DNA of 39,468 nucleotides from Acidobacteriota bacterium (GTDB lineage Bacteria; Acidobacteriota; Terriglobia; UBA7540). Under the pieces are notes generated by a model that worked only from the letters and a program-made list of their open reading frames with translations, did not search any database and was not told the DNA's origin. The position numbers and the translations under genes were made by a program. Shown one piece after another: positions 6,140 through 39,468 of this stretch. How positions within the stretch are numbered: the stretch's first letter is position 1; the number at the start of each line of letters is the position of its first letter. The DNA lies in assembly GCA_902812365.1 (NCBI GenBank), contig CADDZC010000035.1, forward strand, positions 1 through 39,468, read 5' to 3'.

Positions 6140-6349
6140 AACGGATTCCGGGGGGAGCGCGGAGCACGGTCTGAGCAACGGTTCATTGAGAAGCGGCTCT
6201 CAAATCTCATTTCTCGGCAAACCGTTGAAATCCTTTAACCGAAGAGCATATGCGAACGGTCGATCAGCTTCGGATGTCGGCATGATGGCCCCCCAGCGTC
6301 GATGGCCGGCTTGCCGCGGACCACTTCACCCCTTGTCACCCCGGGCTGA

Positions 6350-6379
6350 TTGACGGCCGACCCGCTTTGCTGGTACATT
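6350..6379 (+). promoter_or_regulatory. Predicted promoter of the phosphofructokinase gene
   Basis: TTGACG at 6350-6355 and TACATT at 6374-6379 are separated by 18 bases. Start of transcription near 6386 would give a leader of about 110 bases carrying the hairpin at 6421-6438. Confidence 0.5.
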
Positions 6380-6420
6380 TGGTTTTGCCTGAAGTTCTAA
6401 GCTTCCTTCTGCGGACCATA

Positions 6421-6438
6421 GGCTCGGCATACCGAGCC
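6421..6438 (+). promoter_or_regulatory. Perfect hairpin in the phosphofructokinase leader
   Basis: GGCTCGG, a CATA loop and CCGAGCC form a perfect 7-bp stem 40 bases upstream of the ribosome binding site. It is followed by only two T residues, so it is not a standard terminator. It could be a structural leader element or a protein binding site. Confidence 0.45.
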
Positions 6439-6494
6439 TTCTGCTCCCAGCGTGACCTTCATAGGGCGGAACACGGGGAGGAAATGTCATCATT

Positions 6495-7541: not shown

Positions 7542-7595
7542 GCCGGCCGGAGCCCGACAGGCGGTCGAATTGGGATGAACGGGGCTGGGGCTCTG

Positions 7596-8327
7596 CTATC
7601 GATCGAGACGTACCGAGCTGACACGGATTCCCCGGTCAAGGATCGATTGGAGATCCTTCGAAAAGGCGTCCAAGGCGGCGTCGGGCATCGACTGCAGGAA
7701 AATCCGGAAGGCCAGCAACGCCTCCTTGGTGATAACGTCAAAATCATGGAAAGCCAAGTCGAGCTGATCCCAGGGTTTCGGGGAGATATCCTGCGCCCGC
7801 TCCGCTTGGCGATGGGTGCGGCGGAAGTCGCTGGTGAGAGTTTCTGTGGCCCGCCGCAGCACGCGCATGTGCAGCTGAAACCGCAAGCGGGAGCGAAAAA
7901 CCAACTGATCCACGAGCTCGTGCGTGCGGGCATAATCGATCATCACCCGAGACTTGAACCGCTGCGCCGACAAACTCCGCGCCGGCAAAGTCGCCGGAAC
8001 CACCGGCAAGTGGTCGGACATGATACCGAGTAGCCGCGCCACCGCCAGCGCTAAACGATCCCATTCGGCTGCGGCTAAGCGCACCATCCGCCAGGCGATA
8101 TCGTAGTTGCCGGCGTTGCGCTCCTCGATGGCATCGTTCAGCGCCACGCCCAGGATCGCCGCCTGCGTCTCGAGCTCAACCACGACCGGCCGGTAAATCG
8201 CGTCACGCGCGGCGTCCAACATTCTCGGAAGGCGGACGGGCCGTTCCCCAGACTCGTTCAGTCGCAGAACGCGGCGAACGACGATACCGACACCGATCAA
8301 GACCAATCCACCGAGACCCCAGTGCAT
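7596..8327 (-). CDS. Hypothetical protein with one N-terminal membrane helix
   Basis: I do not recognise this 243-residue protein. It starts at the ATG at 8327, chosen because AAGGGGA lies 4-10 bases upstream; the frame extends to 8390 but without a better signal. One membrane helix lies at the N-terminus (GLGGLVLIGVGIVV, residues 4-17), followed by basic residues. This suggests a bitopic protein with a soluble, largely helical, charge-rich C-terminal part. A conserved-looking core is LNDAIEERNAGNYDIAWRMV. No cysteine pair, enzyme motif or repeat is visible. The gene has its own promoter at 8362-8390 and ends 54 bases from the convergent phosphofructokinase gene. Although ispA lies just upstream on the same strand, an AT-rich spacer with its own promoter separates the two. 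Confidence 0.8.
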   Translation of the reverse strand: MHWGLGGLVLIGVGIVVRRVLRLNESGERPVRLPRMLDAARDAIYRPVVVELETQAAILGVALNDAIEERNAGNYDIAWRMVRLAAAEWDRLALAVARLLGIMSDHLPVVPATLPARSLSAQRFKSRVMIDYARTHELVDQLVFRSRLRFQLHMRVLRRATETLTSDFRRTHRQAERAQDISPKPWDQLDLAFHDFDVITKEALLAFRIFLQSMPDAALDAFSKDLQSILDRGIRVSSVRLDR

Positions 8328-8500: not shown

Positions 8501-9454
8501 TTAGGAGGTTCGGGCCACCACATATCGAGCAATCGCGCGCAGCCGGTTGGCGCGGGCCGCGTAGGGTTCGAGCAGCTCGCATGCCTCCGCGATCAAACGT
8601 CCAGCCTGCCGCTCAGACTCTTCGACCCCGTGCCGGCCGGGGTAGGTGGCCTTTTTCTGGCGACCGTCCTTGTGGACGGTTTTCCCTAGGGCGTTTTGGG
8701 TGCCCAAGACATCAAGTAGGTCATCAGCGATTTGAAAAGCCAGCCCGATTCTATCTCCAAACGCCGAGAGGCGATCTAAGTCGTCTTCCGAGGCTCCGGC
8801 CGCAAGGGCGCCCATCCGGATGGCGGCGCGAATGAAGGCTCCGGTCTTGGCCGTGTGAATGAATTCAAGGGTTGCGGCGTCCACTCCCTCCCCGGCCGTT
8901 TCAAGGTCCACCACTTGGCCTGCCACCATACCGGCCCGGGTACCGATGGCGCGGGCGAGTTCACGAATGAGCCGCAGCCGGCATTCGGCGCCAAGGTGTT
9001 CAACGTCCGTAAGTGTTTCGAATGCAAGGGTTAGCAGCGCATCACCCGCCAGGATGGCAAGGGCTTCACCGAACGCGCGGTGGGCGGTCGGCTTCCCTCG
9101 GCGAAGGTCATCGTTGTCAAGGGCGGGCAGGTCGTCATGAATCAGCGAGTACGTATGAACAAGCTCCAGACTGCTTCCAACCCGCAACAGAATCGCCTCG
9201 TCGCCACCCAGCAACCGCCCAGATTCCATACATAAGATTGACCTTAGCCGCTTGCCACCGGCGAAGATGGAGTAGCGCATCGCCCGGTGGATGGAAAAGG
9301 GATAGGATGACTCGGGGGGAATGATTAGATCGAGTTCGCGGTCGACCCGGCTACGCTGCTGTTGCAGGTAGTACCGGATGCCTTCAAGGTCCGTCACCGT
9401 TGGACGATCGAGACGATCTTGGCGCGTTACCGTATCCTCTGGATTAACAATCAC
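8501..9454 (-). CDS. ispA: Short-chain polyprenyl diphosphate synthase (farnesyl/geranylgeranyl type)
   Basis: The 317-residue protein matches the IspA family of trans-isoprenyl diphosphate synthases, which condense isopentenyl and allylic diphosphates. Motifs visible are the GGKRLR diphosphate-binding site (67-72), the first Asp-rich motif DDLPALDNDD (107-116), LAGDALLTLAFE (135-146), and the second Asp-rich motif QIADDLLD (241-248). Product length cannot be read safely from sequence; farnesyl or geranylgeranyl diphosphate is likely. The frame starts with GTG at 9454, with no better in-frame ATG before the conserved region. It follows xseB by 47 bases on the same strand. The xseB-ispA pairing is common in bacteria and supports both calls. 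Confidence 0.93.
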   Translation of the reverse strand: MIVNPEDTVTRQDRLDRPTVTDLEGIRYYLQQQRSRVDRELDLIIPPESSYPFSIHRAMRYSIFAGGKRLRSILCMESGRLLGGDEAILLRVGSSLELVHTYSLIHDDLPALDNDDLRRGKPTAHRAFGEALAILAGDALLTLAFETLTDVEHLGAECRLRLIRELARAIGTRAGMVAGQVVDLETAGEGVDAATLEFIHTAKTGAFIRAAIRMGALAAGASEDDLDRLSAFGDRIGLAFQIADDLLDVLGTQNALGKTVHKDGRQKKATYPGRHGVEESERQAGRLIAEACELLEPYAARANRLRAIARYVVARTS

Positions 9455-9501
9455 TTAACGAAAAAGCGGCAGGATGCGGAGACCAGAGTCCCACGCCCCT
9501 C

Positions 9502-9762
9502 TCACGCCTCAGTTTCGGCTTCCTCTCCGGGCTTGAACGGCTCCGCGACGACCCCGCCGGCGCGCTTCCTGATGATTTCAACCCTGCCCTCGGCCTCTTG
9601 TAACTGCTTGTAGCACATCGCCGAAAGCTCCATTCCCTCCTCGTACAGTCGCAAGGCCCTCTCAAGCGGCAACTCGGCGCCCTCCAGCTCGTGGACAATC
9701 GCATCCAGGCGTTCCAGGTTCTTCTCAAATGTATCGAGCTTCGGGGACTTAGACTGACTCAT
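9502..9762 (-). CDS. xseB: Exodeoxyribonuclease VII small subunit
   Basis: This 86-residue protein is the typical size of XseB, the small helical subunit that binds XseA to make the single-strand-specific exonuclease VII. The core reads TFEKNLERLDAIVHELEGAE followed by LPLERALRLYEEGMEL and CYKQLQEAEGRVE, the classical XseB pattern. The ATG at 9762 is preferred over the longer frame opening at 9795 because the extra residues do not belong to the family. xseA is not in this window. It forms a unit with ispA, which starts 47 bases downstream. Confidence 0.93.
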   Translation of the reverse strand: MSQSKSPKLDTFEKNLERLDAIVHELEGAELPLERALRLYEEGMELSAMCYKQLQEAEGRVEIIRKRAGGVVAEPFKPGEEAETEA

Positions 9763-9804
9763 ACTCGTTAACGCCGGCGACTGTATTCGAAGCACCCTCG
9801 TCCC

Positions 9805-9833
9805 ATCTTATCAAAGCACCCGCCGCTCCACAA
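9805..9833 (-). promoter_or_regulatory. Predicted promoter of xseB-ispA
   Basis: On the minus strand TTGTGG (9833-9828) and TAAGAT (9810-9805) are separated by 17 bases, giving a leader of about 37 bases before the xseB ATG. Confidence 0.4.
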
Positions 9834-9851
9834 CCCGCGCTCACTTTCCAG

Positions 9852-9880
9852 TTGACGGGCCGCCAAGCCACTTATAGATT
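9852..9880 (+). promoter_or_regulatory. Predicted promoter of the sugar cassette
   Basis: TTGACG at 9852-9857 and TAGATT at 9875-9880 are separated by 17 bases; an alternative TATAGA at 9873 gives 15. It lies back-to-back with the xseB promoter, 18 bases away. Confidence 0.5.
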
Positions 9881-9984
9881 TACCTATCTCCCGGCCCAAC
9901 GGCCATTTCATGTCGGCGGCGAGGGAGCAGCAGGCTAAGGGGCCGCGGAACACGCTCCCCGTGACCGTTAAAAGGAGAAGCTGT

Positions 9985-10944
9985 ATGAGAGTGGGCGTTT
10001 TCACCGCACTGTTCGCCAAACTGAGTCTAGACGAGGTCATCCAGAAAATTAAGCCGCTCGGTATCCAGACGGTCGAACTGGGAACCGGCAATTACCCGGG
10101 TGATCCCCACATCAAACTCGACTGGCTGAACTCACCCGGAAAGCTGAAAGAATTCAAGCAAAAGCTGGACGACGAAGGTATTGCCATCAGCGCGCTCAGT
10201 TGCCATGGCAATGCTCTTCATCCCAACAAGAAATTCGCCCAGTCCTCCGACGAAACCAATCGCAAGACGATCTTGCTGGCCGAGAAGCTGGGCGTCAAGA
10301 CGGTGATTGACTTCTCCGGCTGCCCGGGCGATTCCGACAACGCCAAGTTCCCCAGTTGGTCGCCCACTCCCTGGCCGCCCGATTACCTCGATCTGCTGAA
10401 ATGGCAGTGGGAAAAGAAAGCGATCCCGTGGTGGAAGAAGCGCGCTAAGTTTGCCGAAGACCACGGGGTGCGTATCGCCATCGAGATGCATCCCGGATTC
10501 TTGGTTTATAACCCCGAGACCATGCTGCGGCTGCGCGCTGAAGCCGGCCCGGCGGTGGGCTGCAACTTTGATCCCAGCCATATGTTCTGGCAGGGCATTG
10601 ATCCCTGCGCGGCGGTTCGCGCCCTGGGCGAGGCCGTATTCCACTGCCACGCCAAGGATACCAAGATTTACAGCGTCAATAGCACCGTCAATGGCGTGCT
10701 CGATACGAAGCCGTACAGTGATGAGAAGCACCGGTCGTTTCTCTTCCGCACCGTAGGCTACGGCCATGACGCCGACTTTTGGTGCGATCTGGTCTCGACC
10801 TTGCAAATGGTGGGTTATGACGACGTGCTTTCGATTGAGCACGAAGACAGCCTGATGTCGATCGAGGAGGGCTTCGAGAAGGCCGCCAGGTTTCTCGGGC
10901 AGATCGCCATTAAAGAAAAGCTGAAGGAGATGTGGTGGGCGTGA
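9985..10944 (+). CDS. Sugar phosphate isomerase/epimerase (xylose-isomerase-like TIM barrel)
   Basis: The start at 9985 is set by AAAGGAG eight bases upstream; the frame opens earlier (9910) but those residues are outside the family. The 319-residue protein is an AP-endonuclease-2/xylose-isomerase-like TIM barrel. Likely divalent-metal ligands are Glu167 in AIEMHPG, Asp196 and His199 in NFDPSHM, His222 in HCHAKD and Glu285 in SIEHED. Such enzymes isomerise or epimerise keto-sugars or inositol derivatives; the substrate here is not predictable. It is the first gene of a plus-strand cassette with an oxidoreductase, a carbohydrate kinase and a DUF4380 protein. A terminator-like hairpin overlaps its stop codon, so downstream genes may be expressed at a lower level. 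Confidence 0.92.
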   Translation: MRVGVFTALFAKLSLDEVIQKIKPLGIQTVELGTGNYPGDPHIKLDWLNSPGKLKEFKQKLDDEGIAISALSCHGNALHPNKKFAQSSDETNRKTILLAEKLGVKTVIDFSGCPGDSDNAKFPSWSPTPWPPDYLDLLKWQWEKKAIPWWKKRAKFAEDHGVRIAIEMHPGFLVYNPETMLRLRAEAGPAVGCNFDPSHMFWQGIDPCAAVRALGEAVFHCHAKDTKIYSVNSTVNGVLDTKPYSDEKHRSFLFRTVGYGHDADFWCDLVSTLQMVGYDDVLSIEHEDSLMSIEEGFEKAARFLGQIAIKEKLKEMWWA

Positions 10945-10976
10945 GCGGGCAGCTCAGGCGCGCCCGGCGGTTTTTT
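10937..10976 (+). terminator. Intrinsic-terminator-like hairpin overlapping the isomerase stop codon
   Basis: GGGCGTGAGC (10937-10946) pairs with GCTCA (10952-10956) and CGCCC (10961-10965) across a 4-base bulge. A TTTTTT run follows at 10971-10976. It may attenuate read-through to the next gene. Confidence 0.5.
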
Positions 10977-11067
10977 GCATAAACGGGCTTCAGCAGTTCG
11001 CCGCGCTTGGCGTGCGGACGGCAAGCGGCGGAGCGCGAACGAATTCTCGATCTTCGGGAGGCTGCAG

Positions 11068-12222
11068 ATGCCGGAAATTAACGTGGCGTTGCTCGGTTAC
11101 AAGTTCATGGGCAAGGCTCATTCGAACGCTTACCGCCAAGTCGGCCATTTTTTTCCGTCGAAGTTCACTCCCCGCCTGAGGGTAATCTGCGGGCGCGATC
11201 GGGCTGCGGTCGAAGCCGCCGCGCGCCAGTTCGGCTGGGAAGAGGTCGAGACTGACTGGCGGAAAGTGATCGAGCGTAAAGATATCGACGTGGTGGACGT
11301 CTCCACGCCCGGGCACGTCCACGCCGCGCAGGCCATTGCCGCTGCCGAGGCCGGCAAGCACATCATCTGCGAAAAGCCGCTCGCGAATACGCTGGCCGAC
11401 GCCCAGGCCATGCTTAAGGCCGTCGAGAAAGCGGGCGTGAAACACATGCTTATGCATAATTACCGCAAGATTCCCGCCGTGGTTTTCGCCAAGAGGCTCG
11501 TCGAAGACGGAAAGCTGGGCGATATTTACCATTACCACGGCGCCTATCTGCAGGATTGGATCATGGATCCGAACTTTCCGCTCGTATGGCGCTTGGAAAA
11601 AAAATACGCGGGAAGCGGCGCCCTGGGTGATATCGGCTCCCACGCCGCCGACCTGGCCCGGTATCTCAACAGCGAAGTTGACTCGGTCGTCGGTCATATG
11701 ACCACTTTCATCAAAGAGCGGCCGCTGCCGGGTGCCGGCGCCGGAGCCTGGGGCGCGAAAGGCAGCCAAGGGAAGGGGAAGGTCACCGTGGACGACGACA
11801 CCAACTTCTTGGCGCGCTTTAAAAACGGCAGCGCGGGCGTCTTTGAATCATCCCGCTTCTGCGGAGGGCGGCGCAACTACAACACATTTCAGATGTACGG
11901 CAGCAAAGGATCGATCGCTTTCAACTTGGAGCGAATGAACGAGCTCGAGTTTTATGATCGCACCGATCCCCAAGCCGAACAAGCCTACAAGACAATCATG
12001 GTAACCGAAAGCGTGCATCCTTACGTGGCCGCGTGGTGGCCGCCCGGGCACATCATCGGCTATGAACACACTTTCGTTCACGCCGTACACGATTTCCTTA
12101 TGGCCCTCGAGAAGGACACATTGCCTTCCCCTAACTTTACCGACGGGGTTAAGAATCAAGCGATTTTGGATGCTGTCGAGCGCTCGGCCAAGAGCGGGAA
12201 ATGGGAGAAGGTGAAGCCGTAA
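11068..12222 (+). CDS. Gfo/Idh/MocA family oxidoreductase, cytosolic
   Basis: The start at 11068 is set by CGGGAGG seven bases upstream; the frame is open from 10975. The 384-residue protein has an N-terminal Rossmann fold with VALLGYKFMGKAHSNAY (6-22), where the dinucleotide glycine loop has Gly-Tyr-Lys-Phe-Met-Gly instead of the usual GxGxxG. The signature CEKPL (101-105) includes catalytic Lys103, and GALGDIGSHAADLARYL carries the usual Asp/His pair. These enzymes oxidise or reduce sugars or inositols with NAD(P). It has no signal peptide, unlike the homologue at 24549. It lies between an isomerase and a xylulokinase-like kinase, suggesting dehydrogenation of a sugar before phosphorylation; that is inference. 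Confidence 0.93.
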   Translation: MPEINVALLGYKFMGKAHSNAYRQVGHFFPSKFTPRLRVICGRDRAAVEAAARQFGWEEVETDWRKVIERKDIDVVDVSTPGHVHAAQAIAAAEAGKHIICEKPLANTLADAQAMLKAVEKAGVKHMLMHNYRKIPAVVFAKRLVEDGKLGDIYHYHGAYLQDWIMDPNFPLVWRLEKKYAGSGALGDIGSHAADLARYLNSEVDSVVGHMTTFIKERPLPGAGAGAWGAKGSQGKGKVTVDDDTNFLARFKNGSAGVFESSRFCGGRRNYNTFQMYGSKGSIAFNLERMNELEFYDRTDPQAEQAYKTIMVTESVHPYVAAWWPPGHIIGYEHTFVHAVHDFLMALEKDTLPSPNFTDGVKNQAILDAVERSAKSGKWEKVKP

Positions 12223-28516: not shown

Positions 28517-29203
28517 ATGAGCAAACCGAAGGCGTGGGTATCGTGGAGTACGGGGAAGGACAGCGCATGGGCACTCTACACGGTGCAGGAACGGGCCGAT
28601 GTGGAGTTGGCCGGCCTGCTCACCACCGTCAACACCACCCACGGTCGCGTGGCCATGCATGCCGTTCGGGAAAGCCTTCTCGAACAGCAGGCCGAGGCCC
28701 TTCGCCTCCCGCTCATCAGGGTTCCCCTCCCCTGGCCCTGCCCGAACGCGGCGTACGAGCGGGCCATGTCGGAAGCCATGACTCGCGCGCGCCAGGAGGG
28801 CGTCACCTCCATCGTGTTCGGGGATTTGTTCCTGGAAGATGTGCGGAAATACCGCGAGGAGAAACTTCGCGGTACCGGCATAACTCCGTTATTCCCGCTT
28901 TGGGGATTGGACACGACAGAGCTGGCAAGACAGATGGTAGCCCGTGGCTTGCGGGCATATGTGACGTGTGTGGATCCCCGAAAACTCGATCGTCGTTTTG
29001 CAGGATGCGTCTTCGACTCCTCGTTCCTCGACGATCTGCCCGGCAAAGTGGATGCTTGCGGCGAGAACGGTGAGTTTCATACATTCGTCTACGCAGGGCC
29101 GATGTTTTCCGCCCCGATCCCCGTGGAAGCGGGCGAGATCGTCGAGCGGGACGGATTTGTGTTCGCCGACCTCCGGTCGGCGGCATCGGCCAACGGACGA
29201 TAG
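28517..29203 (+). CDS. PP-loop ATPase, Dph6/diphthine-ammonia-ligase-like
   Basis: Start at the ATG at 28517; the frame opens with GTG at 28496. The 228-residue protein has the ATP-pyrophosphatase loop SWSTGKDSAW (9-18) near its N-terminus. It shows family stretches GVTSIVFGDLFLEDVRKYRE and TPLFPLWGLDTTELARQMV, and a C-terminal CGENGEFHTFVYAGP followed by DGFVFADL. This is the archaeal MJ0570/Dph6 type. Eukaryotic Dph6 amidates diphthine on EF2; bacteria lack diphthamide, so the bacterial role is unknown. The last 115 bases overlap, on the opposite strand, the 3' end of the ygfZ-like gene. Because the conserved DGFVFADL sits in the overlap, this gene is probably not over-extended. Confidence 0.88.
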   Translation: MSKPKAWVSWSTGKDSAWALYTVQERADVELAGLLTTVNTTHGRVAMHAVRESLLEQQAEALRLPLIRVPLPWPCPNAAYERAMSEAMTRARQEGVTSIVFGDLFLEDVRKYREEKLRGTGITPLFPLWGLDTTELARQMVARGLRAYVTCVDPRKLDRRFAGCVFDSSFLDDLPGKVDACGENGEFHTFVYAGPMFSAPIPVEAGEIVERDGFVFADLRSAASANGR

Positions 29204-30252
29204 AACGGGAGCGAAACAACTTCCGCCACTCCACCACCGCCGCGGATCAGTTTGGTACCGCTCTCGGCAACCTCCCGCCTCACGTAGGCCAGCGCAATCG
29301 GTTTCCCCAGGGCAGGCGAGAGGCAGCAACTGGTCACTTCGGCAATCGTCTTTCCCTCCCTCTCGATCTTCTCGCCCGGCAAGAACGGCCCGCCGTCTTC
29401 CGCCACCAGGCCCATCAACCGCCAGTTGACGTGACCCCGACTGCGCGCCCGCTCCACAATTTCCTGCCCAATGTAGCAACCCTTGTTGAAACTCAAGGCT
29501 TCCAGCAGGTTCGCCTCCAACGGCAGGGTGTCTTCGCCGAGATCGGCCCCGTAGCGCGGTAGGCCAGCCTCAATGCGCAGCCATTCGAGTGCTTCCACGC
29601 CGCAGGGAACCGCGCCCGCAGCCTCGAAAGTCTTCCACAGCGTCTCGACTGCGTCCGGCGTCGCCCACAATTCGTAACCTGGTTCCCCGGTGCTGCTGCG
29701 CCGCGCCAGCCGGATCACGGCGCCCTCACGCTCTATCGCTCGATGGTCGCCTTCGTTCGTCAAGGATGATACGTCGCCATTGAGGACCCCTTGAGTGATC
29801 TGGCGCGCGCGCGCTCCCTGAATGGCCAAAGCGTAGTCATTAACGCTCTCCAAGTGCACGCGGTCGCCAACAATGTATTTCTGTAAACCTCGCATCGCCT
29901 TATCCGCGAGGTCAGCATCCGTGTCCACGATCAAGCAATCGCCGGCGTTGTATATCCGCATATCCACCAGGATGTGGCCCTGCGGATTCAGCAGCGTGGC
30001 GTAAGTGCCACGCCCGACACCCAGGTTTTTGATATCATTCGAGACAATGCGGTGGAGAAACGGAACGCGGTGCTCGCCCCTAACCAGAAACCTCGCCCGA
30101 AACGAAAAATCGAACAGCCCGGCACCGTTCCGCACCGCCCGATATTCCTCCCAAGGATCACCAAAACGGGCCGGCACCTCCGCCCCATGGTAGGCCATCA
30201 AGGTGGCGCCCGCAGCGATGTGTCGGTCAGCAAGCGGAGTTTGCCTCATCAT
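29089..30252 (-). CDS. ygfZ: YgfZ-like folate-binding protein (GcvT fold), iron-sulfur cluster maintenance
   Basis: The 387-residue protein has the aminomethyltransferase (GcvT) fold: GAGLFDFSFRARFLVRG (43-59), FLHRIVSNDIKNL and LLNPQGHILVDMRIY. The YgfZ signature is KGCYIGQEIVERARSRGH (257-274), with the conserved Cys259. YgfZ proteins use folate and help assemble or repair certain iron-sulfur proteins. Its position after the suf genes and an Rrf2 regulator supports that role. It starts 77 bases after the regulator gene. The last 36 or so residues are low-complexity and are read through the opposite strand of the Dph6-like gene, so the C-terminus may be a recent extension. A terminator is not visible. 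Confidence 0.9.
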   Translation of the reverse strand: MMRQTPLADRHIAAGATLMAYHGAEVPARFGDPWEEYRAVRNGAGLFDFSFRARFLVRGEHRVPFLHRIVSNDIKNLGVGRGTYATLLNPQGHILVDMRIYNAGDCLIVDTDADLADKAMRGLQKYIVGDRVHLESVNDYALAIQGARARQITQGVLNGDVSSLTNEGDHRAIEREGAVIRLARRSSTGEPGYELWATPDAVETLWKTFEAAGAVPCGVEALEWLRIEAGLPRYGADLGEDTLPLEANLLEALSFNKGCYIGQEIVERARSRGHVNWRLMGLVAEDGGPFLPGEKIEREGKTIAEVTSCCLSPALGKPIALAYVRREVAESGTKLIRGGGGVAEVVSLPFYRPLADAADRRSANTNPSRSTISPASTGIGAENIGPA

Positions 30253-30329
30253 CGGCGTTCAACCACGAAAAAGCCGCAACTTCAGCGGCGCCGCAGCGCA
30301 ACCGGGCTCGTCTGGCCCGCGATCGGCCG

Positions 30330-30812
30330 CTATTGACTTCTGGCTTGCGGCTTCTGATCGATGTTGACGAGCTGCCCGACCCAGGCCGCCATTTCCCGCT
30401 CATTACTGACCAGGTCGCGCAAGGTTGTTTGGGAGAGCACCTGGTCGACAACCAATTGCAAGGCGCGCCAAAGTGAACGGATCGAGCAGTCCACCGTCTG
30501 GGTACACATCTTCTCGTGGCCGGCATGCTCAATGCAGAAGTCCGGCTCGTATAGACGCCCCCCCAGCAGCGCCAACGTCTCGCCCACAATAATCTGCTCG
30601 GCCGGGCGCGCCAGCGTGTAACCGCCGGCCTGCCCGCGCGCGCTCTTGACGAATCCACCGCGCCGCAGGACGCGCAGCAGTTTGGCCGCGTAATGGGTCG
30701 AGATGCCTTCCATCTGGCTGATTTCAGGAATGGTGAGGCTCTTGCCCGGCCCACAGCGGGCGATGCGCAGCAGGCAGCGCAGGCCGTATTCCTCCTGGGA
30801 AGTCAATTTCAT
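30330..30812 (-). CDS. Rrf2 family transcriptional regulator with three cysteines
   Basis: The 160-residue protein begins with the standard Rrf2 winged-helix: MKLTSQEEYGLRCLLRIA, then IPEISQMEGISTHYAAKLLRVLRRGGFVKSARGQAGGYTLA. The effector segment has Cys93, Cys103 and Cys109 (spacing C-x9-C-x5-C), followed by SIRSLW, as in IscR where the cysteines hold a 2Fe-2S cluster. The first spacing is wider than in E. coli IscR (x5). It is encoded inside the suf-ygfZ gene run, between sufT and ygfZ, so it most likely senses iron-sulfur status and controls the operon; that is inference. Candidate sites are in the sufB leader at 37269-37467. Confidence 0.92.
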   Translation of the reverse strand: MKLTSQEEYGLRCLLRIARCGPGKSLTIPEISQMEGISTHYAAKLLRVLRRGGFVKSARGQAGGYTLARPAEQIIVGETLALLGGRLYEPDFCIEHAGHEKMCTQTVDCSIRSLWRALQLVVDQVLSQTTLRDLVSNEREMAAWVGQLVNIDQKPQARSQ

Positions 30813-30943
30813 CGTCGAACCTCTACGCTTTCGCTCGCCCTCTTAACCCAGCGCCGGGTTAAGCCTTCCACCATCCTCTCCGCGCCGCTCCGGGCGTCGC
30901 ACGCAACGGTATTCGAACTCCATCACCCGGACTGTCCCGCCGC

Positions 30944-31360
30944 TCACAGCATGCCCAGTTGCAGCTTCGCCGCTTCGCTCATCTTGCTGGGATCCCACGG
31001 GGGATCAAAAGTGATTTCCACGTTGGCTTCCGTTACGCGCGGTAACATCTCAATCTTGTCTTTGACCTCCGCGGGCAGCGACGCAGCCGCGGGACAGTTC
31101 GGAGCTGTCAAGGTCATCTTGACGTTGACTCGGCCCGAAGGCTCCACCGTCACCCCGTAAATCAATCCCAATTCGTAGATGTCGACCGGAATCTCCGGGT
31201 CGTAGCAGGTGTGCAATGTCTCGATCACTTGATCGTATACCTCCACCTGCTCCATGCCGCTTAAGGCCGGCGTCCCTGCCTCGCCCATGGCGGCCGTCAT
31301 CGGTTCGGCCGGTTGCGAAACCGCCTTCCCTTCCGGATGCCTTACGGAATCGCTGTCCAT
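30944..31360 (-). CDS. sufT: SufT-like DUF59/MIP18 iron-sulfur assembly factor
   Basis: The 138-residue protein has a divergent N-terminal leader of about 40 residues and then a DUF59 domain: QVIETLHTCYDPEIPVDIYE, LGLIYGVTVEPSGRVNVKM and TLTAPNCPAAASLP with Cys89. DUF59 proteins (SufT, MIP18) assist maturation of iron-sulfur proteins. It follows sufU by 52 bases on the same strand and precedes the Rrf2 gene by 131 bases. The start could also be the internal Met at residue 21, 25 or 36, since the leader is not conserved in the family; the ATG at 31360 is kept as the longest option. The sequence ends in EAAKLQLGML, typical of the family. Confidence 0.9.
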   Translation of the reverse strand: MDSDSVRHPEGKAVSQPAEPMTAAMGEAGTPALSGMEQVEVYDQVIETLHTCYDPEIPVDIYELGLIYGVTVEPSGRVNVKMTLTAPNCPAAASLPAEVKDKIEMLPRVTEANVEITFDPPWDPSKMSEAAKLQLGML

Positions 31361-31412
31361 CTCACGCTCTCTCCTCCCCGATCTCCATCCCTCAAACAGC
31401 CCGCCGAGCCTG

Positions 31413-31886
31413 CTAGCGCGCAGCCACGTCTTCGTCGTCCTCGCCTTCAGTCGAAACGGTTCCGCCCCCCTCGAGCGCGCTCTTCAGCGTATGCCAGGCG
31501 AGCGTGGCGCACTTGACCCGAGCCGGAAACTCCGACACGCCGCCAAAGACCTCGAGCTTGCCAAGGTCCGAACCTTCGGGCGCGGCCTTGCCCGTCACCA
31601 AATCGTGGAAGCGCCCGAACAACGCGTCCGCTTCAGCCCGGGTCTTGCCCTTTACGATCTCCGTAAGAATGGATGCCGAAGAAGTGGAAATGGCGCACCC
31701 GGAGCCCCGAAAGCTCACGTCGGAAATGCGGTCACCATCGAGCCTCAGGTAGATGGTCACTTTGTCGCCGCAGAGGGGGTTGTAACCGTCGGCCCGTCGG
31801 TCGGCGGCCTCGATCACGCGAAAGTTCCGCGGACGCCGGCTGTGATCCAGGATCACGTCCTGATAAAGGCCACGCAGATCGGGCAT
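31413..31886 (-). CDS. sufU: SufU-type iron-sulfur assembly / zinc sulfur-transfer protein
   Basis: Start at the ATG at 31886, with GAGGT upstream; the frame opens at 32033 inside the 3' end of sufS. The 157-residue protein is an IscU-fold scaffold. Cys39 and Asp41 lie in NPLCGD, Cys64 in RGSGCAIS and Cys126 in RVKCATLAW. The insertion between the second and third cysteines (EADALFGRFHDLVTG) marks SufU rather than IscU. SufU usually accepts sulfur from SufS through bound zinc. It lies 118 bases after sufS, which agrees with that pairing. The acidic C-terminal tail (EGEDDEDVAAR) is unremarkable. Confidence 0.94.
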   Translation of the reverse strand: MPDLRGLYQDVILDHSRRPRNFRVIEAADRRADGYNPLCGDKVTIYLRLDGDRISDVSFRGSGCAISTSSASILTEIVKGKTRAEADALFGRFHDLVTGKAAPEGSDLGKLEVFGGVSEFPARVKCATLAWHTLKSALEGGGTVSTEGEDDEDVAAR

Positions 31887-32004
31887 TACGACCTCGAGGC
31901 GAAGACTCGCAGCGCGGGGCCGATCACCGCATCCTGCACGGATGCAGACCTCGCGCCCGGCGGCCGGTATCGGCGCCGGACGCCCGTCGAGGGTGGCGAC
32001 TCCT

Positions 32005-33282
32005 TCACCCCAATAACTCCACGACTTTTCCAATCCCCGTCACGAGCGCGTCGACCTCTTCCCGAGTATTGTAAAACGCCAGCGAGGCTCGCGCCGTCGC
32101 CGGCACCCCAAAGCGCTCCATCAGCGGCTGAGCGCAATGGTGACCGGTGCGAATGGCGATGCCTTCCTGGTCGAGAATGGTGCCCACATCATGGGCGTGA
32201 ATACCTTCGAGAACAAAGGAGATAACGCCGGCCTTGTCCTTGGCGGTGCCAATCATCCGCAAGCCGGGAATTTGGGAAAGCTGCTCGGTTGCGTACGCCA
32301 GCAGCTGCCGCTCGTAAGCGGCCAGGACATCGAAACCGAGCCGATGCACGTAGTCAATGGCGGCGCCGAGGCCGATGGTGGCGGCAATGTTGGGGGTGCC
32401 AGCCTCGAATTTGTAAGGAATCGCGTTGTAAAGCGTCTTTTCGAACGTCACGGAGCGGATCATGTCGCCGCCACCCTGATAAGGCGGCATCCTCTCCAGC
32501 CACTCGGCCTTCCCGTAGAGGACTCCGACGCCGGTCGGTCCGAAAATCTTGTGGCTGGACAGGGCATAGAAGTCGCAGTCGATCTGCTGGACGTCCACCT
32601 TCAGATGCGGGACCGCCTGCGCGCCATCGAGCAGCACCGGAATCCCGCGTCGATGCGCCGCGGCCACGATCTCGCGCACGGGATTGATGGTGCCCAAAAC
32701 GTTCGAGACGTGAACCGTCGCCACCAGCTTCGTGCGCGGGCCGAGTAGCCGCTCGTATTCTTCGAAAATGAGTTCACCCCGGTCGCTGATCGGAGCCACG
32801 CGCAGCCTCGCACCCTTTTCTTCACAGAGGATCTGCCATGGCACAATGTTCGAGTGATGTTCCATGGCGGAGATCAGAATTTCGTCGCCCGCCTGGATGT
32901 TCCTGCGCCCAAAGCTGCTTGCCACCAAATTAATCGCCTCGGTCGTGCCCCGCACGAAGACGATTTCGCGCGGCTCGCGGGCGTTCAGCCATCGCTGCAC
33001 CTTGACCCGGACCTCTTCATAGGCCTTCGTGGCCCGCTCGCTCAGCGCGTGGACACCGCGATGAATATTGGAGTTATCGCGGAGGTAAAAATCGCGCTCG
33101 GCGTCGATCACGGCCAGCGGCTTCTGACTGGTGGCGGCGTTATCGAGGTAAACCAACGGTTTCCCGTGGACGGTCTGGTGAAGGATGGGAAAGTCTTCGC
33201 GGACGCGCCGAACGTCAAACGCCGCAGGGTTGGAGCTCGGTGTATCGCTCGTCCAATCGGTGGTCGTTGCCGCGGTCGCCAT
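32005..33282 (-). CDS. sufS: Cysteine desulfurase SufS
   Basis: The 425-residue protein matches group II cysteine desulfurases. It starts at the ATG at 33282 (a GTG immediately before is also open), with GGGAGG upstream. Motifs are VYLDNAATSQKPLAVID, the PLP-binding lysine (245) in ALSSHKIFGPTGVG and the sulfur-carrying Cys383 in IRTGHHCAQPLMERF. It removes sulfur from cysteine and hands it to SufU, encoded next. It is the fourth gene in the operon, 136 bases after sufD. The N-terminal leader (residues 1-22) is low-complexity and may be dispensable. Confidence 0.96.
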   Translation of the reverse strand: MATAATTTDWTSDTPSSNPAAFDVRRVREDFPILHQTVHGKPLVYLDNAATSQKPLAVIDAERDFYLRDNSNIHRGVHALSERATKAYEEVRVKVQRWLNAREPREIVFVRGTTEAINLVASSFGRRNIQAGDEILISAMEHHSNIVPWQILCEEKGARLRVAPISDRGELIFEEYERLLGPRTKLVATVHVSNVLGTINPVREIVAAAHRRGIPVLLDGAQAVPHLKVDVQQIDCDFYALSSHKIFGPTGVGVLYGKAEWLERMPPYQGGGDMIRSVTFEKTLYNAIPYKFEAGTPNIAATIGLGAAIDYVHRLGFDVLAAYERQLLAYATEQLSQIPGLRMIGTAKDKAGVISFVLEGIHAHDVGTILDQEGIAIRTGHHCAQPLMERFGVPATARASLAFYNTREEVDALVTGIGKVVELLG

Positions 33283-33418
33283 CACGCCTCCCTCTGGCTC
33301 GCTTCGGCCGAGCAGCCGGCCTTGCCCAGCCCCATCGTCCGCCAGCCCTGAAGCCCGGGCCCGACCTGCTTGAGTGCTGCCGCCCGACTCCGTTTCGAAT
33401 GCCTGACCCGGCCGGAAA

Positions 33419-34816
33419 CTATGCCTCTTCCACCAGCACCGATACCCGTTCTCCGGCAGGCGACGCGCCCGTGCCCGCCGGCTGGCCCTTGGCGGCCAGC
33501 TTGTCAGTCAGGGCGCGCTGCAGGCGCGTCCGCAAAGGTGCCAACGGGATGCGGTCCAGGATATCGTTCGCGAACGCCTCGATCAGCATGGCCCGAGCTT
33601 CTTCAAGACCGATGCCGCGCGAGCGGAGATAAAACACTGCCTCCGGATCCATCTGTCCGATCGTGGCCCCGTGGGTGCACTTGACGTCATCGGCATAGAT
33701 CTCCAGTTGCGGCTTGGTGTTGATAACGGCGCTCTCCGAGAGCAGCAGGTTCTTATTGCTCTGCTTGGAATCGGTCTTCTGGGCGCCTCTGCGGACGATG
33801 ATCTTGCCGTTGAAGACCCCGTTCGAGGCGCCATCGAGCACTCCCTTGTAAAGCTCGCGACTCGAGCAGTGCGGCTGAGCGTGATCAATGGTCGTGTGGT
33901 TATCCACGTGCTGCCGGCCGTGGATGACGTACAGTCCCTGCAACAAGCTTTCAGCGCCCTCGCCGTCAAGCACCGTGCAAGTATCTTCGCGGTTGAGCAC
34001 CCCGCCGAGGGCCACGACGCGCGTGGTCACGCTCGAGAAGCGCGCCTGGTGGACCTGGACCGTGGCGATATGGTACGCATCGCCGCTTTCCTGCTGCACT
34101 TTCGTATAGTCCAGCCGGGCGTTGTCACCCACCACGGCTTCCGTGACCGCGTTCGTAAAGTATCCAGCTCCCCCCGCACTCAGGTAATGTTCCACCACCG
34201 TTGCCTGGCTGCCCCGCCCGACGACGATCAGATTGCGCGGATGGTACGCGGCCGGAGCCGATTTCCCCGGCAGCGGCGCGGCCAGGAACAGAAGATAGAT
34301 GGGCCTTTCGAGCGCCACGTCCTTGCCCACCTCGACAAAGGCTCCGTCCTCCATCAGGGCGGTATTGAGCGCCGCAAACGCGTTCCGCTCGAAGGGCACA
34401 TAGCGCGCCAAGTGGGGTTCAAGCGTCTCCGGCTCCGAAGCCAGCGCCGCCCTCAGGCTGCGAACCCGAACGCCCGCCGGCAGGCCGTTCGGCGAAGCTA
34501 ACTCCTCCACGTAGCGGCCATTCACGAAAACCAGAAGCGTACAGTGGGCAAAATCCGCGCGCTCGGATTGGCCAAAACGCGCATCAGCGGGGGAAACGCG
34601 TTCCGGCGGCGGGCGGAATGCCCTCCGCGCAATCGGCGCCACGCTGGTAAATCTCCACTCTTCGTCGCGGGTTGTCGGGAAGCCGAGATCGCCGAACCGC
34701 TCGATGGCCGACTTGCGCACCGCCCGGAGCCACTCCGGTTCTGTCCCGGACAGGCGCTCTTCGAGCGCCGCGAAGTGAGCGAAATATTGGTCTTGTTGTC
34801 CCTTCACCGCAGTCAT
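33419..34816 (-). CDS. sufD: SufD, Fe-S cluster assembly complex subunit
   Basis: Start at the ATG at 34816, with AAGGAAA upstream; the frame opens at 34843. The 465-residue protein has the SufBD beta-helix domain, with LVVFVNGRYVEEL-like strands in the N-terminal part, HPRNLIVVGRGSQATVVEHY, and the C-terminal GATIGQMDPEAVFYLRSRG. It continues with GLEEARAMLIEAFANDIL, typical of SufB/SufD. SufD combines with SufB and the ATPase SufC to build iron-sulfur clusters in the cytosol. It sits 66 bases after sufC and 136 bases before sufS. It is distinguished from SufB by its shorter N-terminus and neighbouring gene order. Confidence 0.94.
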   Translation of the reverse strand: MTAVKGQQDQYFAHFAALEERLSGTEPEWLRAVRKSAIERFGDLGFPTTRDEEWRFTSVAPIARRAFRPPPERVSPADARFGQSERADFAHCTLLVFVNGRYVEELASPNGLPAGVRVRSLRAALASEPETLEPHLARYVPFERNAFAALNTALMEDGAFVEVGKDVALERPIYLLFLAAPLPGKSAPAAYHPRNLIVVGRGSQATVVEHYLSAGGAGYFTNAVTEAVVGDNARLDYTKVQQESGDAYHIATVQVHQARFSSVTTRVVALGGVLNREDTCTVLDGEGAESLLQGLYVIHGRQHVDNHTTIDHAQPHCSSRELYKGVLDGASNGVFNGKIIVRRGAQKTDSKQSNKNLLLSESAVINTKPQLEIYADDVKCTHGATIGQMDPEAVFYLRSRGIGLEEARAMLIEAFANDILDRIPLAPLRTRLQRALTDKLAAKGQPAGTGASPAGERVSVLVEEA

Positions 34817-34882
34817 AGATTTCCTTGATCGGGTTGCCGGCACCAGTCTGTTCGGAGGGCCGGTCTGAACCGGCGAGCGGCG

Positions 34883-35650
<768 letters not shown>

Positions 35651-35771
35651 CAGCTCTCCTTCGAATCTCCGGATGAAATCCGCCTCTTCGCGCAACCCTC
35701 CAACCGCCGAGAACGTTTGGACTGTCGCCGAGCCTTTCCCTCAGCGCTGACCCGGTGCCGCAGCCGTGCGC

Positions 35772-37211
35772 CTACCCCACACTCCCTTCCAAACTCACGC
35801 TGAGCAACTTTTGCGCCTCGACAGCGAACTCCATCGGCAGCTCCTTGAACACCTGCTTGCAGAAGCCGTTGACGATCATCGAGACGGCGTCCTCGGTGGA
35901 GATGCCGCGCTGGCGGCAGTAGAAAATCTGGTCCTCGCCGATCTTGGAGGTGGACGCCTCATGTTCCACGGTCGCCGTCGGGTTACGCACCTCGAGGTAA
36001 GGGAAGGTGTGGGCTCCACACTGATCGCCGAGCAGCAGCGAATCACACTGCGAGTAGTTCCGCGCGTTCTGGGCGCCTTGCAGAATCTTCACCATGCCGC
36101 GATAGCTGTTCTGCCCGTGGCCCGCCGAAATACCCTTGGAGACGATGGTGCTCTTAGTGTTTTTCCCGATGTGGATCATCTTCGTGCCGGTGTCGGCTTG
36201 CTGATAGTGGTTGGTGAGAGCCACGGAATAGAATTCGCCCACCGAGCCCTCGCCCTGCAGGATGCAGCTCGGATACTTCCACGTGATGGCCGAGCCGGTC
36301 TCGACCTGGGTCCAACTGATCTTCGAGTTCTTCCCCAGGCATTTGCCTCGCTTGGTCACGAAGTTATAAATGCCACCCCGGCCCTGCTTGTCACCCGGGT
36401 ACCAGTTCTGAACGGTCGAGTACTTGATGGTGGCGTTGTCGAGGGCAATGAGCTCCACGACGGCGGCATGCAATTGATGGGTGTCGCGCATCGGGGCCGT
36501 ACAGCCTTCCAGATAGCTGACATAAGCGCCCTCGTCGGCGATGATCAAGGTGCGTTCAAACTGCCCGCTGTTCTTGGCGTTGATGCGGAAGTAGGTGGAT
36601 AATTCCATCGGACAGCGGACGCCCTTGGGCACGTAACAGAACGATCCGTCGCTGAAGACGGCGGAATTGAGCGTGGCGAAGAAATTGTCCGTGTAGGGGA
36701 CCACCGAGCCCAGCCACTTGCGGACCAGGTCAGGGTGCTCCTGCACGGCCTCGGAGAACGAACAGAAGATAATCCCCATTTCCTTGAGTTTGTCTTTAAA
36801 CGTAGTTGCCACCGAGACGCTGTCGAACACCGCGTCCACCGCTACGCCTGCCAGCAACTCCCTCTCTTGCAAAGGGATACCCAACTTTTCATAGGTCCGA
36901 AGTAGCTCCGGGTCGATCTGCTTGCTCCCGCTGGCTGCGCTCTTGGGGGCGACGTAATATACGTAATCCTGGTAAGGAATCGGGGGGTAATGGACATTCG
37001 CCCAGGTAGGCTCTTTCATGGTAAGCCAATACCGGTATGATTTCAGCCGCCATTCCAGCAGCCAGTCCGGTTCTCGCTTTTTGGCGGCGATCAGCCGGAT
37101 GATCTCCTCGCTCAGCCCCGGAGGTACCGAATCGGTTTCGATCTCGGTCACGAAACCGTACTTATATTCTTGATTGGCCAGCTCTTCGACGTTACTCACC
37201 GGAGTCGGCAT
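35772..37211 (-). CDS. sufB: SufB, Fe-S cluster assembly complex subunit
   Basis: Start at the ATG at 37211 with GGAGGAGG upstream; the frame opens at 37259 but the extra residues are not SufB-like. The 479-residue protein is full length for SufB. Conserved stretches include [79 protein letters not shown] and the [17 protein letters not shown] region. SufB is the scaffold subunit where clusters form. It is the first gene of the operon; its leader is about 220 bases, with a promoter at 37438-37466. Confidence 0.96.
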
Positions 37212-37435
37212 CGGATTTCCTCCTCCACAGATGTACCCAGCTGCGGCCTCGAACGGCACGGCAGCCAGCTTGACTCTTGGCGCTCGTGACGTTCCCCGGG
37301 CGCACGCGGAATCTTCGGACCTGCGATCCTCTGCAATCTATACGTCAGGGTCAAGATTCCATCGCCGAATGGCTTCTGATCGCGCCTGAACGTCAACCGG
37401 GGCTCGTCGAACTGAACGGCTCCCCCAACCCACAA

Positions 37436-37454
37436 TAAATGTAGCTTAAATGTA
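37436..37454. repeat. Direct repeat TAAATGTA phased by 11 bases at the suf promoter
   Basis: TAAATGTA occurs at 37436-37443 and again at 37447-37454, exactly one DNA turn apart, so both face the same side of the helix. The first copy contains the -10 box and the second lies in the spacer. This is a plausible operator. Confidence 0.5.
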
Positions 37455-37466
37455 CAAAAGAGTCAA
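37438..37466 (-). promoter_or_regulatory. Predicted promoter of the suf operon
   Basis: On the minus strand TTGACT (37466-37461) and TACATT (37443-37438) are separated by exactly 17 bases. Transcription would start near 37431, giving a 220-base leader before the sufB ATG. Confidence 0.65.
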
Positions 37467-37571
37467 GATTCTTTTTCCCCGCTTCGACGACCCGGACGTC
37501 GGGAATCCGTCCACACGAGACTCCAACTGCAGAGCCCTGTTCGCCACCCGGTGAGACCGAGCTCCGCTGGC

Positions 37572-38282
37572 TCAATCCAAAGGGCTTTGCCAGACAGCCT
37601 TGCCCACAAAAAAAGGTCCCATCCGCTCGATATAGGTCGAGGTTTGTCGCGTCCGGCGCATCTGTTGGACGCAGGCGGAAAGGGGATACAGCTCGGGGCC
37701 CACGAGGCCGATCACAAAATCGTTGTCGCTCTTATCCAAGCCGAAACAGGCCAGCCGAATATCCTGGGCATAGCCGGCCTCGCCAAACGCGTGGCCGATC
37801 CGGCCATGCTCGCCCAGAATAGACGCTTGCTCTTCGGGGGGGAGGGCGGAAAATGATCCCGCGCGACGCAGCGGATACCACACCGCCCACGGCCACCCGC
37901 GATTCAAAACCGTGCGGCGGGGACGGTTGAGGAGCCAATCTTCGAGATCCGGCTCGTAGCCGAGCGCGTACGTCCGGCCGAGCATGGTGTATTCAAGCTT
38001 CAAATCGAGCCCCTCGAAGGGCGGGCGGCCGAGAAACCGCCGCAGTGTGGCCACGAAGAAATCCGGCTGCTCGCTGAAGGTTAACAGGCCGACACCCCGG
38101 GCGTCATTGGCATCCTCATAGAGCACGCTGGGGAATCCGGCCGAGGCCAGCGACTCCACCAGCGGCTTTGCGTCCGGGCAGCCACCAAAGGCCAGAAACT
38201 GCATAAAGAGCCGGCGATCGGAAACTTGCGGCCGGCCGTTGCGAACGCCGCCCCTCTCGGCAATATCCAGCTTTTCCCTCAT
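37572..38282 (-). CDS. hemQ: Chlorite-dismutase-family protein, HemQ-like
   Basis: The 236-residue protein matches the chlorite dismutase family, in particular HemQ, the coproheme decarboxylase that makes heme b in the coproporphyrin-dependent pathway. Expected features are present: a YPLRR stretch with Tyr136, the candidate catalytic tyrosine, and ILGEHGRIGHAFG, whose His159 is the likely axial heme ligand. The C-terminal TSTYIERMGPFFVGK is also typical. True chlorite dismutase activity is unlikely given the YPLRR motif. It has an unusual N-terminal tail of about 22 residues. It starts 59 bases after the MetF-like gene on the same strand. The ATG at 38282 is preceded by GGAAGA. Confidence 0.85.
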   Translation of the reverse strand: MREKLDIAERGGVRNGRPQVSDRRLFMQFLAFGGCPDAKPLVESLASAGFPSVLYEDANDARGVGLLTFSEQPDFFVATLRRFLGRPPFEGLDLKLEYTMLGRTYALGYEPDLEDWLLNRPRRTVLNRGWPWAVWYPLRRAGSFSALPPEEQASILGEHGRIGHAFGEAGYAQDIRLACFGLDKSDNDFVIGLVGPELYPLSACVQQMRRTRQTSTYIERMGPFFVGKAVWQSPLD

Positions 38283-38341
38283 ACCCGGTCTTCCTCACTC
38301 AGTGCCGGCGAATGCGGGTTGCGCTGTTTCACGCCATCGCG

Positions 38342-39265
38342 CTACACACGCGCCCGCGCGAGAACTAAGTCCGCGTACAGATTTCCCAAACGCTCGAGCA
38401 TAGCCATCGCCGGTGCCCAGTTGCGGCGGTTAATGTGCTCGACGTTCAGCCCGATCAGCGGCGGATCGGGCGGCAGGTTGTCGAACACCTCCATCAGGAT
38501 GCGCTGAGCCAGGTCAAGCGAGCGCTCGAGACAGCGCTCCGGCGGGGCCAACCTCCGGCCGTCATCGAGCAGCAGAAAGCGATCGAGATCCGGCGGAATG
38601 TCGGCCCCGAGCCAACGCAAAAACTCCAGATCGCGCGGATGGCTCACCGGCGCGAAACTCAGAAAAATGCGGGCCTCGAGACCGTTCAGCCGCTGGATCA
38701 GCCAAACAATGTCATTGGGATCGAACAGAATCTGCGTGGTGAAGAATGTCAGCCCGGCGGCGTGCTTGCGCCGGATGCGCTCGGCCTCGCGCACCCGACT
38801 GGGAATCGTGATGCCCCCAAGCGAGATCGGAAGCTGTGCGGCGCGCACCTGTTCGGCCGCATCGGTGACGCTCGGGCCGGGATAGGCGATCCGGCTCGAT
38901 TCCCTCCCCACCAGCACCACGTCTGCGATGCCATACGCAGCGTGAGTCTCGCGGAACCAGGGCAGGGGGTCCGGCTCATAAACCACCGCGCGGTTAACCA
39001 CCACCTCCACGCCCAGTTCGCGCCGAAGGCGCGCTCCGAGTGTGCGCGGCTCGACTCTGGGGACGAATGCGCTCGTCCGTGCGCCGCCCCGCGACGGCGA
39101 TTCGTCGCGAATCTCGGGTAGGTTAATCGCGTCGGCCAGTAGCCGCACCCGTCCCATCTCCGCCACCATCGCCTCCACTGCCTCGGGCTTGTTCGCGGCC
39201 GGAGGAACGACCTCGAAAAAGACCACCGGCAGGGACGGATTCAAAAGCTTGGCTCCCAAGCTCAT
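38342..39265 (-). CDS. Methylenetetrahydrofolate-reductase-like protein
   Basis: The 307-residue protein resembles the MetF (5,10-methylenetetrahydrofolate reductase) TIM barrel. VVFFEVVPPAANKPEAVEA opens the fold, and the central GGITIPSR is followed by ERIRRKHAAGLTFFTTQILFD, the usual FFxTQ region, with IFLSFAPVSHP beyond it. The usual glycine-rich FAD segment after the third strand is replaced by VVLVGRESSRIAYPGPSV, so FAD binding is less certain. It may be a divergent MetF or a relative with another folate-linked role. The ATG at 39265 has AGGAAG upstream. It is followed by the HemQ-like gene 59 bases downstream, probably cotranscribed. Confidence 0.82.
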   Translation of the reverse strand: MSLGAKLLNPSLPVVFFEVVPPAANKPEAVEAMVAEMGRVRLLADAINLPEIRDESPSRGGARTSAFVPRVEPRTLGARLRRELGVEVVVNRAVVYEPDPLPWFRETHAAYGIADVVLVGRESSRIAYPGPSVTDAAEQVRAAQLPISLGGITIPSRVREAERIRRKHAAGLTFFTTQILFDPNDIVWLIQRLNGLEARIFLSFAPVSHPRDLEFLRWLGADIPPDLDRFLLLDDGRRLAPPERCLERSLDLAQRILMEVFDNLPPDPPLIGLNVEHINRRNWAPAMAMLERLGNLYADLVLARARV

Positions 39266-39298
39266 GCAGAACTTCCTAGCGTGCGGTTTAACTTCTTC

Positions 39299-39327
39299 AG
39301 CCTAAAACGAACGGGCGCAAACTGCAA
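39299..39327 (-). promoter_or_regulatory. Possible promoter of the MetF-like/HemQ-like pair
   Basis: On the minus strand TTGCAG (39327-39322) and TAGGCT (39304-39299) are separated by 17 bases. The -10 match is weak, so this is tentative. Confidence 0.3.
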
Positions 39328-39348
39328 GGACGACCCGCGCCGGTGACG

Positions 39349-39468
39349 TCAAGCTTGTGTAAAAAGGCGGAGGGTACGGTTCCGGCATTGGTGCTGCTCG
39401 TTGTAACCATGGAAGATGGCATCGATGATCCGGTCCACGCTTTCCACGTTCACGAACGAGACCATCGG
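39349..39468 (-). CDS. Possible 3' end of a further gene, cut by the window
   Basis: The minus strand is open from the window edge to a TGA at 39351-39349, giving 39 residues. They include VSFVNVESVDRIIDAIFHG and end with TLRLFTQA. The composition is protein-like, with alternating hydrophobic residues and an acidic/basic mix, and it ends 83 bases before the MetF-like start on the same strand. I do not recognise the family, and a frame this short could be chance. Confidence 0.4.
   Translation of the reverse strand, partial: PMVSFVNVESVDRIIDAIFHGYNEQHQCRNRTLRLFTQA

Follow-up and report, generated by a model that had tools for sequence, protein, structure and literature searches.

Two predicted tandem operators for an operon-encoded Rrf2 regulator in the suf leader of an acidobacterium

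What controls the suf genes of this acidobacterium, and which bases of their leader would a regulator read? The window, the whole stretch of 39,468 nucleotides that was analyzed, carries sufB-sufC-sufD-sufS-sufU-sufT-rrf2-ygfZ in this order on its minus strand, from 37211 down to 29089. Gaps between neighboring genes are 39–133 bp, and the run is presumably co-transcribed. Profile scores, given in bits against the family cut-off, identify sufB (35772–37211; NF008773, 911.5 against 717), sufC (34883–35695; TIGR01978, 370.4 against 212.8), sufD (33419–34843; TIGR01981, 294.4 against 222), the cysteine desulfurase gene sufS (32005–33285; TIGR01979, 611.5 against 475.1) and sufU (31413–31937; TIGR01994, 155.8 against 92.5), whose start is tentative as the reading frame may open further upstream. 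The sufT-like gene (30944–31360) scores 140.7 with TIGR02945, slightly below the cut-off of 143.4, and its product is probably a DUF59-type SUF-associated protein. It is followed by rrf2 (30330–30812) and by a ygfZ/gcvT-like gene that ends the run (29089–30252; TIGR03317, 76 against 49). The sufB start at 37211 is preceded by a Shine-Dalgarno sequence, GGAGGAGG, read from the leader at 37219–37226 on the minus strand. A leader of 360 bp separates sufB from the preceding gene, which is weakly HemQ-like (37572–38282, minus strand); a weakly MetF-like gene lies beyond it on the same strand (38342–39265), and both score far under their NCBIfam cut-offs. No Rfam family reached its gathering score in 30000–39468, which leaves the leader with no described RNA family.

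A sequence-only reading had placed operators for the operon's own Rrf2 in this leader, naming a TAAATGTA direct repeat phased by 11 bases and three GTCAAG-core sites, one of them on the -35 box, and had judged such clustering unlikely by chance. All of these strings are present. The TAAATGTA copies lie on the plus strand at 37436–37443 and 37447–37454 (37436–37454 overall), offset by 11 bp. GTCAAG occurs on the plus strand at 37350 and 37462, and the third core, at 37269–37274, reads CTTGAC on the plus strand and GTCAAG on the minus strand. Chance was estimated by shuffling the 360-bp leader 4000 times with its dinucleotides preserved. At least three GTCAAG/CTTGAC strings occurred at a frequency of 0.0005. 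Exact repetition of an 8-mer at an 11-bp offset had a frequency of 0.0055, which rose to 0.0855 when any spacing of 8–22 bp was allowed. These frequencies show that the clustering of cores exceeds chance, whereas the octamer repeat is weak evidence once its spacing is left free. The octamer is found in only 1 of 40 sufB upstream regions, the window's own; it was rejected as an operator and looks like chance. The third core lies in the opposite orientation with no surrounding inverted repeat, and was likewise rejected as an operator and judged incidental. A promoter, P1, is predicted by consensus match on the minus strand at 37438–37466, with a -35 TTGACT (37461–37466), a 17-bp spacer and a -10 TACATT (37438–37443). 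It is the sole sigma70-like site detected in 37100–37700, where shuffles average 0.2.

The element that emerges from the sufB upstream regions of relatives is a different one. It is an imperfect inverted repeat of 24 bp with 9-bp arms, AATCTTGAC-N6-GTAYAGATT, and in relatives the -10 usually lies 3 bp past it. The pattern was derived from these regions, which therefore provide no independent test of it. Two predicted operators in the leader match the pattern on the minus strand. Site 2, the proximal one, is AATCTTGACCCTGACGTATAGATT at 37335–37358, 147 bp ahead of the sufB ATG, with 0 of 18 mismatches. Site 1, the distal one, is AATCTTGACTCTTTTGTACATTTA at 37447–37470, with 3 mismatches, and covers the -35 of P1, so the core placed on a -35 box does lie on one. 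The right half of site 1 is degenerate, which counts against an operator there. The two plus-strand GTCAAG cores correspond to the left halves of sites 1 and 2; of the TAAATGTA copies, one forms the P1 -10 region and the other makes up the degenerate right half of site 1. That the phased octamer and the three cores are the operators themselves is scarcely credible: their low shuffle frequencies favor it, but the octamer is a singleton, one core is reversed and unpaired, and relatives keep the 24-bp repeat instead. The sequence-only reading thus had the right place and the likely actor with the wrong parts list; it had listed the better site, 37335–37358, as a core and overlooked its palindrome.

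In the whole genome, the pattern finds site 2 at 0 mismatches, site 1 at 3, and two further places at 3, and the reversed pattern gives 0 matches. The full motif is therefore nearly confined to suf in its own genome. At least two sites at up to 5 mismatches are present in 16 of 40 sufB upstream regions, the second often weak. Tandem spacings are 22, 25, 26, 34, 43, 92, 98–100, 112, 133 and 216 bp. Helical phasing of the pairs was considered and rejected, as the spacings show no common phase when judged by eye. Four genomes have spacings of 25–26 bp, as do two adjacent IscR sites of Pseudomonas aeruginosa (PMC6599224, partial text). The window's 112-bp spacing fits two promoters, each with its operator, though the second -10 is weak. 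This possible promoter, P2 (37326–37354, minus strand), may use TTGACC inside site 2, a 17-bp spacer and the weak -10 GAGGAT; it does not appear in the output of the sigma70-like promoter scan.

The distribution of the repeat was compared with that of the regulator in 61 related genomes. Operon-type Rrf2 was called at E < 1e-28 in 32 of them. Two of these carriers (G013 and G028), along with G036, were left out of the site count because the sufB upstream region is missing on the contig. Conservation above sufB in relatives that keep the regulator holds for the 24-bp repeat, with a site in 28 of 30 readable carriers at up to 3 mismatches and 30 of 30 at up to 5, but not for TAAATGTA (0 of 39 other regions). 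The two carriers with 5-mismatch sites only (G030, G033) are at a level sometimes reached by shuffled regions. Among genomes that have sufB and no detected Rrf2 copy, a site is found in 1 of 10 at up to 3 mismatches and 2 of 10 at up to 5. Fisher's test at 3 mismatches gives 2e-6 with kinship ignored, the counts being uncorrected for relatedness. The Rrf2 search spanned whole genomes, and the contig continues past the suf genes in G009, G034, G051 and G058; absence is less sure in G002, G018, G020, G027 and G043 because contigs end in or near the suf genes. The 3-mismatch exception, G015, is 83% complete and has its suf genes on several contigs. G020 has a 5-mismatch candidate at -125, and the congeneric G004 has a 1-mismatch site at -127. 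The reversed pattern matches 0–4 times per related genome at 3 mismatches, so a 3-mismatch motif is weak evidence by itself and gains meaning by position and gene context only.

A second collection, of eighty named loci, was assembled with an Rrf2 profile; 18 were dropped (sufB start unmatched or less than 150 bp upstream) and 62, labeled Acidobacteriota, Ignavibacteria or Bacteroidetes, were kept. Of the 62, L186 alone lacks the motif in the 500 bp ahead of sufB; the other 61 have it there. Sixteen of the 62 are genomes already in the relatives set, and 45 of the 46 further loci have the site. Across all 80 loci, the 73 strand-wise matches collapse to 65 distinct places. Of these, 64 fall in the 500 bp ahead of sufB and the remaining one is in L170; the reversed pattern has no match in 1.26 Mb. 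The four rrf2 loci with no matched suf gene (L167, L170, L180, L184) yield one 3-mismatch site, that of L170, about 425 bp upstream of rrf2. Five loci (L164, L176, L188, L189, L192) show a GCCAC...GTGG hairpin-like repeat between the operator and sufB.

Farther afield the association loosens. In an even phylum sample (n = 247) searched at 1 mismatch, 30 genomes carry the homologue (E 1e-30) and 4 of them have the site; of the 7 genomes with the site, 3 have no homologue at that threshold. Sixteen of the 30 carriers were examined individually. Searched at 3 mismatches, seven show a site at a suf or rrf2 promoter and nine show none; in 8 of these 9, TTGAC-N6-GT(A/C) lies within 260 bp upstream of rrf2, where mononucleotide shuffles predict 0.05. 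These counts indicate that the code drifts past the close lineage, or that some distant homologues use other sites. Where gene order is altered in distant relatives, the site shifts to the first suf or rrf2 gene. The repeat stands ahead of sufC in L222 and L224, ahead of both sufB and sufC in L221, and ahead of rrf2 in L230 (a perfect palindrome), L231 and L234; in L235/L228 it precedes sufB, with rrf2 on a separate contig. Two genomes of another family that lack a close Rrf2 homologue carry AATCTTTACTTTTTTGTATAGATT (G181:C1:60892–60915 and G268:C16:3892–3915; L237, L238). In L234 (G299, 5512–8025) and L239 (G189, 9079–11586), sufB is matched in two segments separated by about 1.1 kb, which could reflect an insertion such as an intein.

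The repeat could instead be the operator of a regulator other than the operon-encoded Rrf2, which we consider unlikely. The site occurs with no detected homologue in G015 and in three genomes of the phylum sample, and the tie between Rrf2 and repeat comes from sequence comparison. Close relatives, however, have the site and the Rrf2 lineage together, and the site stays with the first suf or rrf2 gene when gene order changes. Repeats of similar size at suf and isc promoters are bound by Rrf2 proteins (PMC9973013 and PMC6599224, partial texts). The genome has two Rrf2 genes in all, and only the operon's encodes the three-cysteine signature.

Several members of the family have another Rrf2 gene, here called rrfX, ahead of sufB. 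Two rrfX proteins score 100.4 and 83.6 bits with TIGR02944, below its cut-off of 110.65. Of 12 rrfX genes examined, 10 (at L101, L102, L106–L110 and L112–L114) are preceded by an inverted repeat of their own, ATATCCGAC-N7-GTCGGATAT or a related form, with 8–9 of 9 arm positions paired. This repeat resembles the IscR type 1 consensus (PMC6599224, partial text). Two genomes, G004 and G016, have both regulators, and in these the window-type operator lies between rrfX and sufB.

One of the two further places in the window's genome (G000:C6:6220–6243; L196:1335–1358) lies upstream of genes for a putative outer-membrane protein and a small cytochrome c, with 3 mismatches. The first protein of this second target has no NCBIfam match. 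Fifteen genomes match it, and four of them (G000, G010, G013, G014), all carriers of the regulator, have the repeat there with 1–3 mismatches; in G013 and G014 a Fur-family gene stands first. The carriers G001, G004, G006 and G007 have the locus with no repeat. The promoter of this second target, read by eye, is TTGACA-17-TAATCT (18-bp spacer in G000), and the repeat overlaps its -10. Repeats of the TGCGAC-GTCGCA or TGCGAA-TTCGCA type adjoin the Rrf2-type site in L197, L207 (upstream of the Fur-family gene) and L204, and are perhaps the Fur-family protein's own operator. The fourth motif place in the genome (G000:C7:16782–16805; L034:1501–1524; 3 mismatches) lies between a minus-strand ORF and a cytochrome-oxidase-like ORF.

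The conserved block might be a mere strong sigma70 promoter, with a TTGAC -35, conserved spacer bases and no repressor. Most sites do include TTGAC and a TAnnnT-like -10 at 17 bp (43 of 51 and 29 of 51 Acidobacteriota loci, respectively). However, AATC upstream of the -35 and GTAYAGATT in the spacer are foreign to promoter elements, yet they are conserved as strongly as the -35. In 8 of the 10 loci labeled Bacteroidetes or Ignavibacteria the -10 reads TAnnTTTG, a form seen in 0 of 51 Acidobacteriota loci, whereas the repeat is the same in both groups. TAnnTTTG is the Bacteroidetes -7 box (PMC7366714, partial text). Seven loci, six labeled Bryobacterales and one Terriglobia, have AATGTATAC or AATGTGTAC as left arm; they lose TTGAC, this arm pairs better with the right one, and no -35/-10 is evident around the repeat. 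Paired arm positions average 7.5 of 9 in the 8 distinct sites lacking TTGAC, compared to 6.2 in 41 TTGAC sites. The repeat is independent of the promoter register: it stays constant while the -10 tracks the host phylum, and it lies on the -10 at the second target. These data argue that the repeat is an operator and more than a promoter element. The near confinement of the motif to suf and its absence where relatives use another regulator point the same way, and a promoter with no repressor is very unlikely.

The operon does encode its own likely regulator. Its Rrf2 scores 107.7 bits with both superfamily models (cut-offs 73.3 for TIGR00738 and 30 for PF02082) and is likely an Fe-S-binding protein. 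Cys93, Cys103 and Cys109 are kept by every aligned sequence (16 of 16 and 50 of 50); C-x9-C-x5-C is present in 78 of 78 loci, which were themselves partly found via a DCS pattern. The predicted model has a mean pLDDT of 82, with blocks at 91–110 of only 56–63. It adopts the winged-helix fold of known Rrf2 structures, matching CymR with Z 16.9 (126 aligned, rmsd 2.1), IscR up to 15.0, RsrR 14.7 and NsrR 14.3.

The best explanation, to which we assign a probability of about 0.8, is that the Rrf2 of this gene run acts on two tandem operators in the leader, its Fe-S-loaded form repressing its own suf operon. An Rrf2 dimer would bind AATCTTGAC-N6-GTAYAGATT. The left half of the repeat would double as the -35 hexamer and the right half would occupy the promoter spacer, so bound Rrf2 would exclude RNA polymerase. 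By analogy with RisR of Myxococcus, the Fe-S-loaded protein would repress, and cluster loss under iron shortage or oxidants would free sufBCDSUT-rrf2-ygfZ. Because rrf2 lies within the operon, the circuit would be one of negative feedback. The element is a well-supported predicted operator for a regulator of known kind, with a sequence code of its own.

A broader picture is offered tentatively, at somewhat less than even odds for its parts taken jointly. In it, AATCTTGAC-N6-GTAYAGATT is the Rrf2 lineage's own operator code, kept nearly letter for letter in Acidobacteriota, Ignavibacteria and Bacteroidetes with each host's -10 fitted around it; in one acidobacterial family, control of suf has changed hands between two dissimilar Rrf2 proteins that each have an operator of their own; and the window-type regulator also sits above the Fur-family/outer-membrane/cytochrome c locus, so that part of iron regulation would depend on Fe-S status. 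For suf regulation, the repeat provides an exact candidate operator that can be tested, both in Acidobacteriota and in the related loci of Ignavibacteria and Bacteroidetes. Natural exchanges of regulator together with operator, and the two genomes with both, offer a route to how Rrf2 proteins choose DNA and how Fe-S feedback is rewired.

Among known systems, the Xanthomonas-type SUF regulator TIGR02944 does not describe the operon's Rrf2 (59.3 bits against 110.65). The TIGR02944-like rrfX shares with it an Rrf2 gene beside sufB, but is 25–32% identical to the window's Rrf2 and has C-x6-C-x5-C, as read from L016. Assignment as the IscR equivalog was also rejected (TIGR02010, 73.5 against 207.55). 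The isc system of P. aeruginosa (PMC6599224, partial text) shares feedback on Fe-S assembly genes, two tandem promoter sites and a half-site with GACT. It differs in the IscR cysteines, C-x5-C-x5-C, and in its 25-bp type 1 site with GACT-N5-AGTC; the type 1 site ATASYYGACTRWWWYAGTCRRSTAT was rejected as a description of the leader sites, with at least 9 mismatches at its best match. The closest account that we found is that of RisR, the Rrf2 of an Fe-S assembly locus of Myxococcus xanthus; this protein represses isc and suf when it carries its cluster, and its footprint spans the suf -35/-10 (PMC9973013, partial text). The operator given there, TtGAC-N7-GTCCt, was rejected for the leader sites, where the best core match has 3 mismatches and the spacing is N6. 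The RisR core, GAC-N7-GTC, is one base wider than GAC-N6-GTA here, which has conserved AATC/GATT flanks in addition. The likenesses are an imperfect palindrome that begins with TtGAC over the suf -35/-10 and the spacing C-x9-C-x5-C, with RisR cysteines 92, 102 and 108 corresponding to 93, 103 and 109 here. In the same partial text, the RisR subgroup, IS6, is said to take in Acidobacteria and Chlorobi, and on cysteine spacing it is plausible that the operon's Rrf2 belongs to it.
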